From Natrialba sp. SSL1 (GTDB lineage Archaea; Halobacteriota; Halobacteria; Halobacteriales; Natrialbaceae): DNA of 64,000 nucleotides. The notes under the pieces were generated by a model that saw nothing but the letters and a program-made list of their open reading frames with translations, did not search any database and had not been told where the DNA came from. Below are positions 47,248 to 58,794 of the stretch, piece after piece. Location of the stretch: positions 1-64,000 of the forward strand of contig NZ_MASN01000012.1 in the NCBI RefSeq assembly GCF_001861355.1. The letters run 5' to 3'. Both the position numbers and the translations under genes were made by a program. Each line of letters begins with the position of its first letter. The stretch's first letter is position 1.

Positions 47248-47373
47248 ACCACTCACTGCTCACTGCCCACCACCTATAGTAACAACTGCAACTATTTACA
47301 CACTGATCGCCGAGCAGGCTGGCGATCAGGTGTGCATTGACTTGCAGTGGCTACTATACCACTCACTGCTCAC
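47248..47373. repeat. 16-bp direct repeat pair
   Basis: ACCACTCACTGCTCAC occurs at 47248-47263 and again at 47358-47373. The second copy overlaps the last codons of the GNAT gene. Such short direct repeats could reflect a duplication or an excised element. The DNA between them has no gene. Confidence 0.55.
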
Positions 47374-51323: not shown

Positions 51324-52430
51324 TCAAAGGGACGGCAGCGGCGGAAACCGCATCCAGTCGATAACCGCATCCGGATCGTGGTAGCGCTGATAGAACGCAT
51401 CCTGTTCATACACAGCAGTAAACGAGTCGATCCCCGGCCCACGAACCCGGAAATCGCGCGGCGGTGCAACACCCATTCCAAGATAGCAATCGCGGAGTTG
51501 GCACCGAAGCTGGTCGACGAGAGCGCGCTGGAACGCAGCAACGGACTCGAACGGCGTCTCCTCCACCGGCAACTGCAGCCGGACGCTGCTCTCGTCGTCA
51601 GCAACGGATTCGCTCGACTGCTCGTATTCTACTCGAGTACACCCATCGCGCACCCACTCAACGCGAAGGGGACGACAGGGAAAGACGAGCGTCGTACCGT
51701 CGCGGTCGGTGGTTGCGTCCACCGTCGGGAGGGGTGGCGAACCGTCGACAGGTACCTGCGAGAGGGCACTGGCGAGGCGAGCGAAACAGTCACCGCTTCG
51801 TCGTTCCGGGAGGGCAGCCATCGATTTCCGGAGCGCGCCGAGTCCCTCGAGTTCGATGAGGATGTCGAGAAGCGGCCGAAGTGCCGCGTCTTCAATGTCG
51901 ACGGCAATGTCCTGCTCGATCAGTCGACAGGTCGACGGTGCGAACCCAGTCGGCGGATCGACGGGCAGTCCATCTGCGGCTGACGCCGCGGTGTCAGCAT
52001 CGGGTGCAGAGTCAGTGTCGACTCCAGAGTCGGAATCCGGGCTGAGTACGCGCCGGTCAGCACCAGCCACTCGCTGTCGATACGCCGTTTCGAACGTCGA
52101 TGCAACCGTTTCGGGCGTCATTGCGCCAAGCACGAGCGTCGCAGCAGCCAGGTGTTCCGGATAGGTGATTCGATCGGTCGTGCTGTAGGGATCGATCGTA
52201 TCGAACCCGCAGGCACGAAAGGCGACGTACTTGGCAAATCTGGATCGTTGTGCATGCTGTGTACGTGCCGCCACCGCCCGGTCGTCGCCGGTAGGCGGTG
52301 GGATTTCGTCCGAGGAGTGGTACTCGAGTTCACCCTCGCGTGTGACGGTAAGCGACTGTTCGATGCCGTCGTTATCTGTGACAGTGAGGTCGACGCGTCG
52401 ATCGGTCCGGGACTGAATAGTGGCCTGCAT
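51324..52430 (-). CDS. unknown protein encoded next to the CIS module
   Basis: This 368-aa acidic protein has no domain that I recognise. The N-terminus (TVTDNDGIEQSLTVTREGEL) is beta-rich. The middle (about residues 110-160) is Asp/Ala/Ser-rich and disordered, and the C-terminal half mixes helical and beta segments, ending in VIDWMRFPPLPSL. The ATG at 52430 is chosen because the upstream frame is basic. The AT-rich region to its right carries a TATA-like block at 52514-52527 and separates it from the rightward CIS genes. Its divergent position suggests linkage or shared control, but no role can be assigned. Confidence 0.75.
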   Translation of the reverse strand: MQATIQSRTDRRVDLTVTDNDGIEQSLTVTREGELEYHSSDEIPPPTGDDRAVAARTQHAQRSRFAKYVAFRACGFDTIDPYSTTDRITYPEHLAAATLVLGAMTPETVASTFETAYRQRVAGADRRVLSPDSDSGVDTDSAPDADTAASAADGLPVDPPTGFAPSTCRLIEQDIAVDIEDAALRPLLDILIELEGLGALRKSMAALPERRSGDCFARLASALSQVPVDGSPPLPTVDATTDRDGTTLVFPCRPLRVEWVRDGCTRVEYEQSSESVADDESSVRLQLPVEETPFESVAAFQRALVDQLRCQLRDCYLGMGVAPPRDFRVRGPGIDSFTAVYEQDAFYQRYHDPDAVIDWMRFPPLPSL

Positions 52431-52685: not shown

Positions 52686-53957
52686 ATGACTCGGGACGGG
52701 GACTACACGACCAACGAGATGGGAGGACTCTCTCAGTTCAAGAAGAATCGATTCTTCAGGGGGAAGTTGATGACCCCCCGCGATATGGAAGCAGAGCAAG
52801 CGTACCACGCTGAGCGACTGGAGACGATAACCCGGTTCCTCGATGGATCGGGAATCGTCCACGGGCTCGAAGTTCAGTCCGTTACCGAAACAGAGACCGG
52901 CCTCGACGTTACGGTCGACGCTGGCTTTGCACTCGACGGACGCGGGCGACCGATCGTCGTCGAACAGGTAACGACGAAGTCGCTTCCCGAACCGACGACC
53001 GACGAGGTACACCTGTTTATCCAGTTCAGCGAGGTCGCCGTCGAAACCGTTCCCGTTCCGGACACGGACGGTGCAATCGACGACGAAGCGGTACCGAACC
53101 GCGATGTCGAAGTGTTCGAACTGACACACCGCGAGGAGCCCCCGGAGACACCCACAGAGCCGCCGACGCTCGACCTCGACGGGTACGATCCGGAAACGGC
53201 CGACCCACAGGCGATTACCAGAGCACTGACAGCGCAGTACCATGCCAACCACCGAACCGGGACACCGGAAACGGACGACCCGGCCGTCTATCTCGGCGGG
53301 TTCGAGCGCCAGCCGGATGGGCGGTGGGAACCGATAGCAACCGCGGCAACCGACACTGACACCGACACCGACACCGGCAAGCAGTACGCAGCTGATCACG
53401 AGCTGTTGTTCGCAGCGCTTGCAGCACACCTCGCCGATACCGACAACCCACACCAGACACCAGTCTCGGACCAGACCGAAGACCGACCCGACGACCTGAC
53501 CGGAATCGTCAAACGGCTCAGGGCGATGGAAGAGACGGTCGGCGAACTCGAACAGGAGCGAGACACGATGCAGACGTACCTGCTCCGGAAGACCGTCAAA
53601 GACCGTGTCCGGTTCTTCGAAACGCTGAGCGACCGACTCGAGCCACACACGGGCGAAGGCGCGCGGATCACCCGTGAAATCGCAGAGCTCTCCCGGGACA
53701 ATCACGCCGCGACCACACGCGAAGACGTCTATCGCGCACAACTCTCCGCGCTGCTGGACTACCTGGTCCGACTCGGTGAACCCCTCGAATCGGTCGTCAC
53801 CGAGGAGAGTCTCGAACGCTACCTGAAAGCGGTCTCTCGACTCCAATCACGGATCGACGAGAACGGACCGCTACTCGAGTTGATCGACGCACACGACCAG
53901 GTGTGTGAAGCGGCCGAGTCGCTCGAAATTCTGGTTGGTGTCGTTCCTGAAGCGTAG
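52686..53957 (+). CDS. conserved CIS-associated protein (possible baseplate or cargo-adaptor)
   Basis: This 423-aa protein has an N-terminal segment (about residues 17-63) with KNRFFRGKLMTPRDMEAEQA followed by HAERLETITRFLDGSGIVHG and LEV. This pattern resembles a family often found beside phage-tail-like/CIS genes (a consensus like F.G.LL...DF..EQ.YH...R..N..LHG.GVV.GL). The centre has a repetitive Asp/Thr-rich stretch (about 218-235), and the C-terminal half is helical or coiled-coil. The ATG at 52686 is supported by the TATA position. The function is not known, but a structural or adaptor role in the particle is inferred from context. Confidence 0.7.
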   Translation: MTRDGDYTTNEMGGLSQFKKNRFFRGKLMTPRDMEAEQAYHAERLETITRFLDGSGIVHGLEVQSVTETETGLDVTVDAGFALDGRGRPIVVEQVTTKSLPEPTTDEVHLFIQFSEVAVETVPVPDTDGAIDDEAVPNRDVEVFELTHREEPPETPTEPPTLDLDGYDPETADPQAITRALTAQYHANHRTGTPETDDPAVYLGGFERQPDGRWEPIATAATDTDTDTDTGKQYAADHELLFAALAAHLADTDNPHQTPVSDQTEDRPDDLTGIVKRLRAMEETVGELEQERDTMQTYLLRKTVKDRVRFFETLSDRLEPHTGEGARITREIAELSRDNHAATTREDVYRAQLSALLDYLVRLGEPLESVVTEESLERYLKAVSRLQSRIDENGPLLELIDAHDQVCEAAESLEILVGVVPEA

Positions 53958-54004
53958 AAACGTCGAGAACCGCCACCGGCGGAACGTGTAGGTTAAGCAA
54001 AAGT

Positions 54005-54055
54005 ATTATATTATATCAATATAGAACACACATAACGTAGTAGAAGTTCAAGAGG
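54005..54055 (+). promoter_or_regulatory. promoter and Shine-Dalgarno for the tail sheath gene
   Basis: TATA-type sequence (attatattatat) lies at 54005-54016 in an AT-rich block. GAGGT at 54052-54056 lies about 9 nt before the sheath ATG at 54065. A separate strong promoter with a leader and an SD is unusual in this mostly leaderless genome, and it marks the sheath gene for high expression. Confidence 0.6.
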
Positions 54056-54064
54056 TAATTAAGA

Positions 54065-55789
54065 ATGCCAGAGTATCAGGCCCCAGGTGTCTACGTCGAG
54101 GAAGTCAGTAGCGGAAGCAAATCGGTCGAAGGAGTTAGCACGAGTACGGCTGGCTTCCTCGGTCAAACGCGCCGTGGCCCGGTGGAGCCACGGCTGGTGA
54201 CGAACTACGCCGAGTTCGAACGCGTGTACGGTTCGAGCCCGAAGAACTCCCACCTCGACGTTGCTGTCGACGGATTCTTCAAGAACGGTGGTAGCCGCTG
54301 TTACATCGGTCGCGTGACCGCCGTGGATCCGAACGACGTTGCAACGACGGCGTTGATCGACGAAACCGGTACGGAAACCGTCGAAATCGAAGCGAACGGC
54401 CCAGGCGAGTGGGGAACGTCCGTCGCAGTCATCGTTCGCGACGGCCAGCGCCCAGGCCAATTCGACATGATCGTCCGCTACTGGTCGTGTGATCTCGAAG
54501 AGGTCAGCCAGCCGGAATCCAACCGTCCGGAACCCACACCCGATGTCGAGGAAGTCTTCGATGGTCTCTCGAGTGACCCACAGTCGAGCCAGTTCTACGA
54601 AAAGCAAGTGACTTCCTCCGTTCTCGTCGATGTCGAATACCTCGGAGACGGACGCCCCGTCGAGGGACTCACGTGGCTGAGCCGCGACACGCCGACGGCG
54701 TGTTCCGACGGCGGTCTCGTCGAGACGGACGGTGAGGAAACCGTCGTCTACATCCCAGACGAACTCGAGGAGCTGGGGTACAACGATCTTCGCGGTGTCG
54801 CAAAGCCGTTCGAAATCGCAGGAAATGCCTCGAAGGACGATCTCATCGAAGAGCTCGAAGAGATTCGCTCCGGTGAGCGAGAGGTCGAGGTCGAGGTCGT
54901 CACCGAGGAACCAGAGAAGCCCGATGCAGAGGGCGAAGTCACCCTGAGCCACTACGAAGGGATCGACAAGCCGGGTCTCCGGACTGGCCTTGCTGGCTTC
55001 AAGGCACTCGACGACATTTCGATCGTCTGTGTTCCCGACGAGAACGATGTGAGTGGGTTGACCGACGCCCTCGTGGCTCACTGTGAGAACATGGGCGAGC
55101 GGTTTGCGATCCTCCAAGCGCCACAGAACCCCGGCCCAGTCTCGGAGATGGAGACACCGGTCGACTCCACGTACGCGGCGTACTACTATCCGTGGCTTAC
55201 CGTCCTCGATCCAGTGACGAATCGCGAAAAGCTCGCCCCACCAGGCGGCCACATCGCCGGTATCTACGCCCGAAGCGACGCACAGCACGGCGTGCACAAA
55301 GCCCCCGCAAACGAAGTCGTTCGCGGCATCGTTGGCCTGCAACACGAGATCACGAAGGGAGAACAGGACGTACTCAATCCGAAGGGGATCAACTGTATCC
55401 GCAGCTTCCAGGGCCGCGGTGTTCGCGTCTGGGGGGCGCGAACCACCTCGAGCGATCCCGAATGGAAATACCTCAACGTCCGACGCCTGTTCCTGTTCAT
55501 CGAGCAGTCGATCGACGAGGGGACCCAGTGGTCGGTGTTCGAGCCGAACGACAAGGACCTCTGGGCACGGATCCGTCAGTCCGCCGAAAACTTCCTCACA
55601 ACTGTCTGGCGCGAGGGCGGTCTCCAGGGGTCGACCGCAGACGAGGCGTTCTACGTCCGCTGTGGCGAGGAAACGATGACACAGGACGATATCGACAACG
55701 GTCGTCTCATCGTCGAAATCGGCGTTGCACCGGTCAAGCCGGCTGAGTTCGTGATCTTCCGCATCAGTCAGGACACCGGCGACGCCTAA
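54065..55789 (+). CDS. phage-like contractile tail sheath protein
   Basis: This 574-aa protein matches tail sheath proteins of contractile phages and CIS. The N-terminus PEYQAPGVYVEEVSSGSKSV is the handshake region. The segment GTRR-like STAGFLGQTRRGPVEPRLV and the C-terminal domain NVRRLFLFIEQSIDEGTQW and NPFL-like FLTTVWREGGLQG are typical. Residues 140-340 hold an inserted, surface-exposed acidic domain. A complete reading frame with no signs of decay suggests a working part. Its own promoter and SD lie upstream. The tube gene follows after 161 bp. Confidence 0.95.
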   Translation: MPEYQAPGVYVEEVSSGSKSVEGVSTSTAGFLGQTRRGPVEPRLVTNYAEFERVYGSSPKNSHLDVAVDGFFKNGGSRCYIGRVTAVDPNDVATTALIDETGTETVEIEANGPGEWGTSVAVIVRDGQRPGQFDMIVRYWSCDLEEVSQPESNRPEPTPDVEEVFDGLSSDPQSSQFYEKQVTSSVLVDVEYLGDGRPVEGLTWLSRDTPTACSDGGLVETDGEETVVYIPDELEELGYNDLRGVAKPFEIAGNASKDDLIEELEEIRSGEREVEVEVVTEEPEKPDAEGEVTLSHYEGIDKPGLRTGLAGFKALDDISIVCVPDENDVSGLTDALVAHCENMGERFAILQAPQNPGPVSEMETPVDSTYAAYYYPWLTVLDPVTNREKLAPPGGHIAGIYARSDAQHGVHKAPANEVVRGIVGLQHEITKGEQDVLNPKGINCIRSFQGRGVRVWGARTTSSDPEWKYLNVRRLFLFIEQSIDEGTQWSVFEPNDKDLWARIRQSAENFLTTVWREGGLQGSTADEAFYVRCGEETMTQDDIDNGRLIVEIGVAPVKPAEFVIFRISQDTGDA

Positions 55790-55882
55790 CGCCACCAGCA
55801 CTGCGAGCCGTTAGTTACCAGCCCGCGAGCACAGACACGCGGAACAACCTGCGGACACGAGACGCGTAACAAACAACCGAAC

Positions 55883-55914
55883 GAGGCGGGGCGCCGTGAC
55901 TACGGGAGCGCCTC
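55883..55914 (+). repeat. hairpin between sheath and tube genes
   Basis: GAGGCG at 55883-55888 pairs with CGCCTC at 55909-55914, with an inner CCGT/ACGG stem (about 55894-55905). It lies between the sheath stop and the tube start and may be a partial terminator or RNA-processing element that sets the sheath-to-tube ratio. Confidence 0.4.
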
Positions 55915-55950
55915 AGCCGACACCAACTCACAACAGACAACAGCGCACAT

Positions 55951-56403
55951 ATGCCAGAACACGGACCACTTCCAAGCACGGAGTTCGCCGTCGAACTCGA
56001 CGGCGTCGATATTCCCGGTTTCCTCGAGGTCAAACTGCCGACCCAGGAAACGGACGAACAGGACTACCGCGAAGGCGACGACCCGAAGCACTCGAAGAAG
56101 CTCTTCGGTGACGTCCATTACACGCCACTCGTACTGGCCCGCGGTGCCGAAGAAGACAACGAACGACTCGACGATTGGCGAAAAGCCGTCGCAAACGGTG
56201 ACGCTGAGGAGGCACGAAAGAATATCGCCGTCATCATCCAGGACAAGGCGGGTGAGTCTGCTCTCCGATTCGAGTTCACCAACGCCTGGATTCGGAAGTA
56301 CGAACCGCCAGCACTCAACGCACAGGCAGGCGGCGGCCCAGAAGCGATCGCCGTCGAAACCTACACCGTCGAATTCGAGGAGATGGAACGGAAGAACGTA
56401 TGA
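55951..56403 (+). CDS. tail tube protein (first, gp19-like)
   Basis: This 150-aa protein has the tail tube fold of CIS/T4 gp19-like proteins. It begins LPSTEFAVELDGVDIPGFLE and continues VKLPTQETDEQDYREGDDPK, both beta strands. VHYTPLVLARGAEEDNERL and the C-terminal VETYTVEFEEMERKNV fit the inner tube. It would form hexameric rings inside the sheath. Its stop overlaps the next start by 4 bp (ATGA). A second tube paralogue lies at 57552. Confidence 0.9.
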   Translation: MPEHGPLPSTEFAVELDGVDIPGFLEVKLPTQETDEQDYREGDDPKHSKKLFGDVHYTPLVLARGAEEDNERLDDWRKAVANGDAEEARKNIAVIIQDKAGESALRFEFTNAWIRKYEPPALNAQAGGGPEAIAVETYTVEFEEMERKNV

Positions 56404-56603
56404 CCGGATCGGACGGGGAAAGCGAGACAGCAGTGTCGATAGCCCGCACGTACACGGTTGGTCGCAACCGGTACCGTGACAGTTGGACTGTCGATGCAGA
56501 GGGCTGTCTGCACACCGGATCGGCGACGACCACGCCGTTCGTCGAGCGCACGGCGACGAGTACGCAGTCGGCGCTCACGCATCGAGGTGTTCGCCACCCA
56601 TGA
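56400..56603 (+). CDS. 67-aa ORFan between tube and chaperone-like genes
   Basis: This 67-aa frame has 4-bp overlaps at both ends (ATGA with the tube gene, ATGA with the following gene), so it is probably real and translationally coupled. It contains VSIARTYTVGRNRYRDSWTV and Thr/Ser-rich residues, and one Cys. No family is recognised. It may be a small part of the particle or a tail accessory. Confidence 0.65.
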   Translation: MTGSDGESETAVSIARTYTVGRNRYRDSWTVDAEGCLHTGSATTTPFVERTATSTQSALTHRGVRHP

Positions 56604-57172
56604 CAGACCAGCCACTACAGACCGAGTTCGAATTCACGCTACCTCGGGGGTACGTCGATGACGATGGCACACTCCACACGGAGGGCCGGATGCGCCTTGC
56701 GACCGCTGCCGACGAAATCCAGCCGTTGCAGAACCCGCGCGTACAATCGAACTCGTCGTACCTGACCATCGTCTTGCTCTCACGTGTCGTCACTGAACTC
56801 GGGACACTCGAGACGATCGACGAAGACGTCATCCAGAATCTCTTCGTAACGGATCTCGAGTACCTCCAGGCGATGTACGAACGAGTCAACAACCGCGGGC
56901 GGAACGCTACGGAAACGGCGTGTCCGGACTGCGGGTCGGTGTTCGACGTGGATGTCGAAACCGGTGCACAGCTCGCACCGCCAGCCGATGCGGAGATTGA
57001 GCAGCCAGGTGTGAACGCCGACGCAGACCCCATCGAGGGGGTTCACGGAACCAGTGAGTCGGCCGATTCGACTGGAGCCGCTACCGCTGTACCCGATGGT
57101 TCGGACGCTGGGAACGATACCGAGCGCGAACACGAACAGACGGAGGTCGAAGCGGGAAACCCGAGCGAGTGA
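56600..57172 (+). CDS. probable tail-assembly chaperone-like protein with a CxxC
   Basis: This 190-aa protein has an N-terminal domain (about 1-105) with FELPRG-like FEFTLPRGYVDDDGTLHTEG followed by LATAADEIQPLQNPRV and YLTIVLLSRVVTELGTL, a pattern of phage/CIS tail-assembly proteins. C108/C111 (CPDC) form a half zinc knuckle, and a long acidic disordered tail follows. It is translationally coupled upstream and downstream (GTGA overlap). Role by analogy is assembly of the tube and tape measure, though no tape-measure gene is in the window. Confidence 0.7.
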   Translation: MTDQPLQTEFEFTLPRGYVDDDGTLHTEGRMRLATAADEIQPLQNPRVQSNSSYLTIVLLSRVVTELGTLETIDEDVIQNLFVTDLEYLQAMYERVNNRGRNATETACPDCGSVFDVDVETGAQLAPPADAEIEQPGVNADADPIEGVHGTSESADSTGAATAVPDGSDAGNDTEREHEQTEVEAGNPSE

Positions 57173-57465
57173 TACGGCTGTCCGATCCCGACACCCTCTT
57201 CGAGGAGGTCGCGTTCATCGCCTATCACTTCGGCTGGAGCCACGACGAGGTCCTCACACTCCCCCACTGGGAACGACGCCGGTGGTGTGGCGCGATCAGC
57301 GAGATCAACGACCGAATCAACGAAACGGGTATGCCAGACCATGAAGGTGGTCAGAGCGCAACTGAGAGAGCTGGCGGCGCCAGCGCACAGACTGGTGGTG
57401 CCGGGAGCTTCCTCGACGATGACGGTGATGGGATCGTGCTGCAGAACTCACTGGACGAACTCTGA
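57169..57465 (+). CDS. DUF6760-like small CIS protein
   Basis: This 98-aa protein starts with GTG at 57169, overlapping the previous stop. Its N-terminal 55 residues contain VAFIAYHFGWSHDEVLTLPH followed by WERRRWCGAISEIN, resembling the DUF6760 proteins found in CIS and phage-tail clusters. The C-terminal 40 residues are Gly/Ala-rich and disordered. The conserved context (between chaperone-like and tube genes) supports a tail role. The exact function is not known. Confidence 0.72.
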   Translation: MIRLSDPDTLFEEVAFIAYHFGWSHDEVLTLPHWERRRWCGAISEINDRINETGMPDHEGGQSATERAGGASAQTGGAGSFLDDDGDGIVLQNSLDEL

Positions 57466-57551
57466 AACGAATTAGCAGCGACTTGAACGACGACGGGAGC
57501 GACGAAGAGTACGCGGAACTCCCCACTTTTACAAGCAGGATCCAACACACA

Positions 57552-58019
57552 ATGACCGGCGACGAAACACCATACACGGGCGGAGACGGGCCATACGCGC
57601 AGTACAACTTCGAAGTCGAAATCGACGGCGAGACAGTCGCGGGTTTCGCCGAAGTCTCGGGAATTACGATGCAACTCGAGACGATCGACTATCGCGAGGG
57701 AGGGGTGAACGATCACGTCCACACACTCCCGGGGACGTTCGCACACGCGAATCTCGTATTACAACGCGGAATGACGAAGGATGCATCGTTCTGGGAGTGG
57801 ATTCAGGACGTGATGAGTGGCAGTGTCACGCGAAAGAACGTCGTTGTGAAGATGCGAGAGGGGTTCAACGGAGAGAACGGCTGGGGATGGGAGTTCAAAC
57901 GCGCCTATCCGACGATGTGGCGTGGCCCTGATCTTGTGAGTACGAATCAGGGGATGGCAATCGAATCTATCGAACTATCCTACGAGCGGTTTTCGAAGAT
58001 GTCGGGATTGCCGGAGTAG
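57552..58019 (+). CDS. tail tube protein (second, gp19-like)
   Basis: This 155-aa tube paralogue starts MTGDETPYTGGDGPY and continues YNFEVEIDGETVAGFAEVSG, then METIDYREGG-like QLETIDYREGGVNDH. LPGTFAHANLVLQRGMTKDA and the C-terminal SIELSYERFSKMSGLPE are strongly tube-like (Afp1/Afp5 type). The ATG at 57552 is preferred. A TTG at 57483 would add 23 residues that do not align. Two tube types are common in CIS, where one may form the initiating ring near the baseplate. Confidence 0.9.
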   Translation: MTGDETPYTGGDGPYAQYNFEVEIDGETVAGFAEVSGITMQLETIDYREGGVNDHVHTLPGTFAHANLVLQRGMTKDASFWEWIQDVMSGSVTRKNVVVKMREGFNGENGWGWEFKRAYPTMWRGPDLVSTNQGMAIESIELSYERFSKMSGLPE

Positions 58020-58137
58020 CACGAACAACAGGACTCACAAACGGATTGTGACAGGGAGACGGGAACAGACGACAGCGAGACACGACGCCGAATGCACTCG
58101 AGTTACGCCCAAATAACACACACCACAGAGACACCAA

Positions 58138-58794
58138 ATGGCAGCACCAACCGCACTTCGAGACACGACTGACTTACTGGTGACGCTGCTCCGGCTCCAG
58201 TTGGCGGGAGATGATGACGACCGGCTCAACGAATCCCAGATTCAACCGATTCCACCGACGGCAGTCGACGACGACTCGACGGTGAGACTCACGCTGAGCC
58301 TCTATGACGTCTCGAAAGCCGGATCGCTCAACACCGGTTCGAAGCGTATCACCGACAATCGAACGGAAAAGCCACCGCTTGGACTCGAACTCCGGTATCT
58401 ACTGATGGCGTTTCCGAGTGCCGACGACGAACGTGATGCGGTGTTAGCCCAACAGCAACTGCTCGGGGCTGCGATGCAAACACTGTACGACGCCGAAGCG
58501 ATCGAGCCCGAGGAATTGCCAGCGGGGCTCGACGAGCGACTGACGATTACACTCGAGCAACACGAGCCATCGGCCGCAACTGAGCTCTGGAGTTCGATGC
58601 CGGATCTACCGCTCTATCCGCACGTGATCTATACGGTTCGGCCGGTTCGAATTCCGTCGACGCAGTCGACGCCGTTCGAACGCGTCAGCGAGCGAGACGT
58701 GCGTGTTGGGCGCGGTGTTACCACTGACACGGACGGTGAGAGCAACACAAGCGACGAGCACGGCGACCGCACCGAGATGGACAGAAGCGAGTAG
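58138..58794 (+). CDS. DUF4255 (Pvc16-like) tail terminator protein
   Basis: This 218-aa protein matches DUF4255 proteins. The segments TALRDTTDLLVTLLRLQLAG, VRLTLSLYDVSKAG, GLELRYLLMAF and SSMPDLPLYPHVIYTVRPVR form the alpha/beta core that in Pvc16/Afp16 proteins caps the tube and sheath. The last 40 residues are acidic and disordered. It ends the CIS module in this window, and no baseplate or ATPase genes follow. A CTAACCAGTT repeat pair lies just downstream. Confidence 0.88.
   Translation: MAAPTALRDTTDLLVTLLRLQLAGDDDDRLNESQIQPIPPTAVDDDSTVRLTLSLYDVSKAGSLNTGSKRITDNRTEKPPLGLELRYLLMAFPSADDERDAVLAQQQLLGAAMQTLYDAEAIEPEELPAGLDERLTITLEQHEPSAATELWSSMPDLPLYPHVIYTVRPVRIPSTQSTPFERVSERDVRVGRGVTTDTDGESNTSDEHGDRTEMDRSE

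Follow-up and report, generated by a model that had tools for sequence, protein, structure and literature searches.

The closest described system is the archaeal T6SS of H. borinquense, which was reported to be functional and to have 14 structural genes (Zachs 2024, PMC11566945). Its genes form two subclusters lying 8.7 kb apart on one plasmid, and the cluster is described as being without homologues of the plug (Cis6), the tape measure and the crown (Cis19). The clade with a six-TM anchor candidate was imaged at the membrane (PMC11566945). The DNA analysed here, a window of 64,000 nucleotides at the start of contig NZ_MASN01000012.1 (C12) of Natrialba sp. SSL1, encodes part of a contractile injection system (CIS), and the genome as a whole carried the same 14 structural genes as H. 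borinquense: Cis1, 2, 5, 13 and 16 in the window, Cis7, 8a, 8b, 9, 10, 11a, 11b and 12 on contig C4, and Cis15 on contig C60. The features of the haloarchaeal T6SS and clade IIa CIS were found as well, namely Cis2/1/5, the baseplate and spike set, Cis15 with Cis16, and eCIS_core effectors with a downstream partner. Judging from the sequences, the window very probably supplies the tail cassette (Cis13-2-1-5-16 and small assembly genes) to a single complete, membrane-anchored CIS of the 'archaeal T6SS' kind. Its baseplate, spike and anchor would be supplied from C4 and its ATPase and effector from C60, with assembly in trans and with dispersal as the origin of the split.

The module in the window is encoded on the forward strand and every frame in it is intact. 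It begins with Cis13, a baseplate-periphery protein (52686-53957, start ATG at 52686; NCBIfam NF053767 CIS13_fam, 570 bits against a cut-off of 370). The Cis2 contractile sheath (54065-55789; Pfam Phage_sheath_1, 1.8e-23) and the Cis1 inner tube (55951-56403; Pfam gp19, 6e-28; NCBIfam CIS1_fam, 288 bits against a cut-off of 220) come next. The sheath matched PDB 9ezm over its full length with 1025 bits; this entry, named 'Phage tail sheath protein FI' (574 aa), is probably the Cis2 sheath of H. borinquense. Downstream lie a conserved small ORF of 67 codons (56400-56603), a Zn-ribbon tail-assembly-chaperone-like protein (56600-57172; PHROG 508 tail assembly chaperone, 2e-8, and weak Zn-ribbon matches), a DUF6760 protein (57169-57465; Pfam, 9e-39) and the Cis5 inner-tube adaptor (57552-58019; Pfam gp19, 2e-38; NCBIfam CIS5_fam, 289 bits against a cut-off of 260). 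For Cis5 the ATG at 57552 is preferred, and the frame is open from a TTG at 57483 (57483-58019). The last gene is Cis16 (58138-58794; Pvc16_N/DUF4255, Pfam 1.8e-30), a predicted tail terminator or cap, which was present in one copy per genome in all 15 genomes searched. The small ORF overlaps its neighbours by 4 bp at both ends. In many relatives tblastn placed it at the same position, flanked by Cis1 and the chaperone-like gene, and an NCBIfam search gave no match for it.

A sequence-only reading of this DNA had already named the sheath, the two tube paralogues, the DUF6760 and DUF4255 proteins and a tail-assembly-like protein, all in intact frames; Pfam confirmed these assignments, with a PHROG match for the last protein, and the frames are indeed all open. 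Its description of the junctions as mostly 4-bp overlaps held only in part. Such overlaps exist, but at three of the seven junctions within the module, two of them owing to the 67-codon ORF that had been overlooked; the remaining gaps measure 86-161 bp. The module had also been described as lacking baseplate, spike and ATPase. A Pfam scan of the region around it (window 49.7-60 kb) detected no gp25, BaseplateJ, VgrG or Afp15-like ATPase; however, 'without baseplate' is not strictly true of the window, since Cis13 is a baseplate-periphery protein. The predicted fold of Cis13 appeared weakly TssK-like (AlphaFold model pLDDT 66; best Foldseek matches TssK, E 4.5e-4, TM about 0.2), which is a lead only because of the low model confidence and the TM of about 0.2. 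The model also gave a weak structural match to the Anabaena thylakoid-anchored CIS (PDB 7b5h), and a sequence-profile search of Cis13 against the PDB returned no CIS match. A prophage was considered and rejected, as it had been in the earlier reading: no capsid, terminase or portal was found among the genes identified in the 10.9-kb segment with the module, and the module DNA matched none of 50,697 phage records.

The whole-genome search recovered one sheath, two tubes and one gp25, the sole strong gp25 lying on contig C4. There, domain content and gene order delimit a baseplate block at about 68.7-85.9 kb with all genes on the same strand. The order is a six-TM protein, a long Ser/Pro/His-rich ORF, a CIS_tube plus LysM protein (Cis7), the GPD hub and the spike (together the two VgrG halves), PAAR, gp25, BaseplateJ, a second BaseplateJ and Cis12. 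Cis12 scored 957.7 bits in NCBIfam against a cut-off of 860, and the Cis numbers of the other C4 genes were assigned here by domain and order. The six-TM protein upstream of the baseplate block is an anchor candidate of 396 aa, in which six hydrophobic segments are followed by a soluble C-terminal tail of roughly 165 aa; compared by description, its layout is like that of the H. borinquense anchor candidate Hbor_38620 (six TM helices and a cytoplasmic domain). Cis11b and Cis12 form a single ORF here (C4 about 81.6-85.9 kb; L028:15560-19900) and two genes in the sister species. The difference is a single additional G in a G run where the two meet; it may be a true change or an error of assembly. 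The long ORF between the six-TM gene and Cis7 has 1447 codons (L028:4026-8369) and is rich in Ser, Pro, His and Arg; many relatives conserve its last ~70 residues, and it may encode a disordered protein that ends in a conserved motif. With the cluster ATPase of N. magadii (G046) as bait, the best ATPase match was an 818-aa WHD-AAA protein on contig C60, with an eCIS_core gene and a partner gene next to it. These results strongly support the earlier suggestion that the module cooperates with baseplate genes located in another part of the genome: gp25, BaseplateJ and VgrG were found on C4, and the ATPase and an effector on C60. The same reading had also offered a reduced haloarchaeal form, able to work with no baseplate, spike or ATPase. 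The window alone does lack those genes, but the genome has intact copies of them, and the baseplate co-diverges with the tail. Because all 14 of the 14 known haloarchaeal T6SS structural genes are present, the reduced form is refuted and retains practically no chance of being correct.

Most of the window aligns collinearly with the N. magadii megaplasmid pNMAG01, the individual blocks having roughly 70-92% identity; the exceptions are a few rearranged pieces and the segment 47939-58863. This segment, which contains the tail module and a few other genes, is absent from pNMAG01 by blastn of its flanks. At the empty site there (359,293-359,430), a GNAT gene is separated from an M24 peptidase gene by only about 137 bp. 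The flanks of the C4 block match pNMAG01 as well, and the baseplate block is missing there. Since the C12 and C4 flanks both align to pNMAG01, the tail and baseplate blocks, assigned by synteny, probably belong to a single replicon but to distant sites on it, which in pNMAG01 coordinates are about 190 kb from each other. The M24 flank gene, which lies on the second replicon of N. magadii, had prompted the idea of a split between chromosome and megaplasmid; the pNMAG01 match of both flanks led to its rejection. Collinearity of C60 with pNMAG01 was not seen over the 40 kb compared. The insertion boundaries share no direct or inverted repeat of at least 11 bp, and a tyrosine recombinase gene that adjoins the C4 block is present in pNMAG01 too; a mobile element at the boundaries was rejected on these grounds. 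A 58-62-bp element at 47301-47362 occurs once in the window and has 17 pNMAG01 matches at 89-98% identity in both orientations, and Rfam gave no match in the window, this element included.

The usual layout, in which the structural genes form one cluster and which is not essential to the mechanism, was not found here: the genes are on three contigs, and they are also split in G044 (N. chahannaoensis), G045 (N. hulunbeirensis), G030 and G033. The genome is a 61-contig draft, so the physical distance between tail and baseplate is estimated as at least about 78 kb from the contig ends and as the above value from pNMAG01. Such a draft might suggest that the split is an artefact of chimeric contigs and that the true locus is contiguous. 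However, a contig break cannot explain the split: the nearer end of C12 is 9.7 kb away from the tail block, and the baseplate block is well within C4, a contig of 199 kb. Moreover, the two sister Natrialba, which are independent assemblies, are split with the same tail-side flanking genes, collinear with pNMAG01, and the same kind of split occurs in one-contig, closed genomes of another genus, where sheath and gp25 are 0.89 Mb (G030) or 0.64 Mb (G033, across the origin of the record) apart. Misassembly, which the earlier reading had named as fatal to a split system, was therefore not upheld, and we consider it very improbable.

Comparison across Natrialbaceae suggests how the layout arose. In G012 (Halopiger djelfimassiliensis) and G096 the three blocks are joined in one locus (baseplate; effectors and ATPase; tail) with a 368-aa neighbour at the far end, the blocks of these two genomes occupying about 30-36 kb; for the contiguous clusters of G012 and N. 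magadii, all blocks fall within about 25-30 kb. The G012 cluster has orthologous blocks, the same internal order per block and the 368-aa neighbour, but is contiguous; the N. magadii cluster likewise has orthologous blocks but is contiguous and on the chromosome. The Natrialba sp. SSL1 blocks keep the internal order of these joined relatives, but on three contigs. The tail and baseplate protein trees do not unite the split Natrialba with the other split clade, G029/G030/G033, as sisters but place joined forms between them, which favours at least two dispersals. In this reading a once contiguous cluster became dispersed, most likely at least twice. In a class-wide sample, 49 of 391 genomes had a sheath over the cut-off, with tail and baseplate usually within about 35 kb, and the far split is a minority state among these sheath-bearing genomes. 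The dispersed layout is probably the new point of this work; we found no description of it in the literature consulted.

Both halves are under purifying selection, with dN/dS mostly 0.02-0.25 in the split genomes. Among the split Natrialba, the sheath came out at about 0.03, the tubes at 0.02-0.05, and Cis7, hub, spike and gp25 at 0.01-0.05. The BaseplateJ proteins and Cis12 lay at about 0.13-0.21, and DUF6760 reached 0.45 in one pair. Protein distances of tail and baseplate across 29 genomes were correlated at r = 0.973, a level that no permutation out of 2000 attained, and shared species ancestry contributes to this value. Low dN/dS and co-divergence together speak for one selected machine. 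An early stage of loss, as the sequence-only reading had also proposed, would make the module a decaying remnant. Signs of decay or incompleteness do exist in some Natrialbaceae: G073 gave weak partial sheath matches only, G057 and G071 had a sheath but no gp25 match, and real decay is possible in these genomes. However, the frames are open here and in the sister species, no decayed frame was seen in the close relatives, and dN/dS is not relaxed. Early loss is refuted by the intact frames and the low dN/dS of both halves, and a remnant is extremely improbable. What this study observed directly is the gene content, the intact frames, the selection on both halves, their co-divergence and the split layout.

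The ATPase is tied to effector genes. We found five eCIS_core (DUF4157) matches in the genome of the window, and the C60 copy is followed by its partner gene downstream. Two effector-type genes of this family (C11:37129 and C36:11897) lie on contigs away from the structural genes, and some relatives have 14 to 34 eCIS_core matches. Natrialbaceae yielded 48 copies of the ATPase, of which at least 35 had an eCIS_core effector no more than 2.3 kb away, 34 of those on the opposite strand. At least four ATPase loci were present in G044 (on its contigs C36, C37, C46 and C61) and three in G033, most of them divergently paired with an eCIS_core gene. We tentatively propose, with less than even confidence, that the haloarchaeal T6SS consists of three separable and perhaps independently regulated cassettes, namely tail, baseplate with anchor, and ATPase with effector and partner. 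Because the third is multiplied and scattered, several effector-specific AAA+ loaders might serve one shared machine. A selective association of Pvc15 with effectors was reported (PMC11495950), and the effector-tied ATPase copies make it testable whether every effector has its own loader, as Pvc15 suggests.

The 368-aa protein is encoded at 51324-52430 on the reverse strand, divergently from Cis13, and in several genomes it adjoins the tail module. Members of its family share a CQ(L/V)RDCYxxMGxxPP stretch, conserved at the C terminus. In the loci compared, about 30 of about 53 members lie directly downstream of an eCIS_core gene, both counts being approximate as some loci overlap between collections, and another set stands alone, divergent beside Cis13. 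dN/dS was about 0.2-0.25 within Natrialba and 0.37 for G030 versus G033, and Foldseek gave no significant match for the protein model. We regard it as a candidate effector partner, adaptor or immunity protein; because the family is conserved alongside different effectors, an adaptor-like role seems more likely than classical immunity.

By homology with H. borinquense, the products of the three blocks would meet in trans, the six-helix membrane protein and the baseplate would assemble at the cytoplasmic membrane, and Cis1 and Cis2 would polymerise on the baseplate via Cis5 and Cis7. Cis16 may cap the tail, and the ATPase may help to load or recycle. Contraction of the sheath would then drive the PAAR/VgrG-tipped tube with eCIS_core effectors into a touching cell; assembly, anchoring, contraction, delivery and killing are all modelled on H. 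borinquense. A released extracellular CIS (eCIS) is an unlikely alternative to this membrane-anchored, T6SS-like machine: the DUF4157, Pvc16 and gp25 families are common to eCIS, but upstream of the baseplate block lies a six-TM anchor candidate, as also reported for the clade that was imaged at the membrane (PMC11566945), and a separate receptor-binding fibre gene was not identified among the C4 and C12 genes. What tempted one to see a baseplate-less contractile module is half of a known machine, which corrects that misreading. Surveys for a single contiguous cluster may, this suggests, miss or truncate such systems, and cassettes that are dispersed but co-inherited make it testable whether baseplate and tail are controlled separately.

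Compared with known systems, the Anabaena thylakoid-anchored CIS (PDB 7b5h) has homologous sheath and BaseplateJ proteins. However, it has a plug (Cis6) and a crown (Cis19), whose homologues are reported to be missing from the H. borinquense cluster (PMC11566945). The extracellular PVC/AFP systems share the Pvc16_N cap, the AAA+ ATPase and the sheath, tube and gp25 homologues, whereas here a membrane-anchor candidate is present in place of an identified receptor fibre. Unlike in PVC/AFP, with its effector-associating ATPase Pvc15, the ATPase here is linked to effector genes and not to the structural operon. The H. borinquense T6SS is alike in its 14 structural genes, the full-length 9ezm sheath match, the six-TM anchor candidate as far as its described layout goes, and the DUF4157 effectors with a downstream partner gene. 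It differs in that its two subclusters share one plasmid, whereas in Natrialba sp. SSL1 there are three unlinked blocks, two of them probably at sites of a pNMAG01-like replicon and the third on a different contig.
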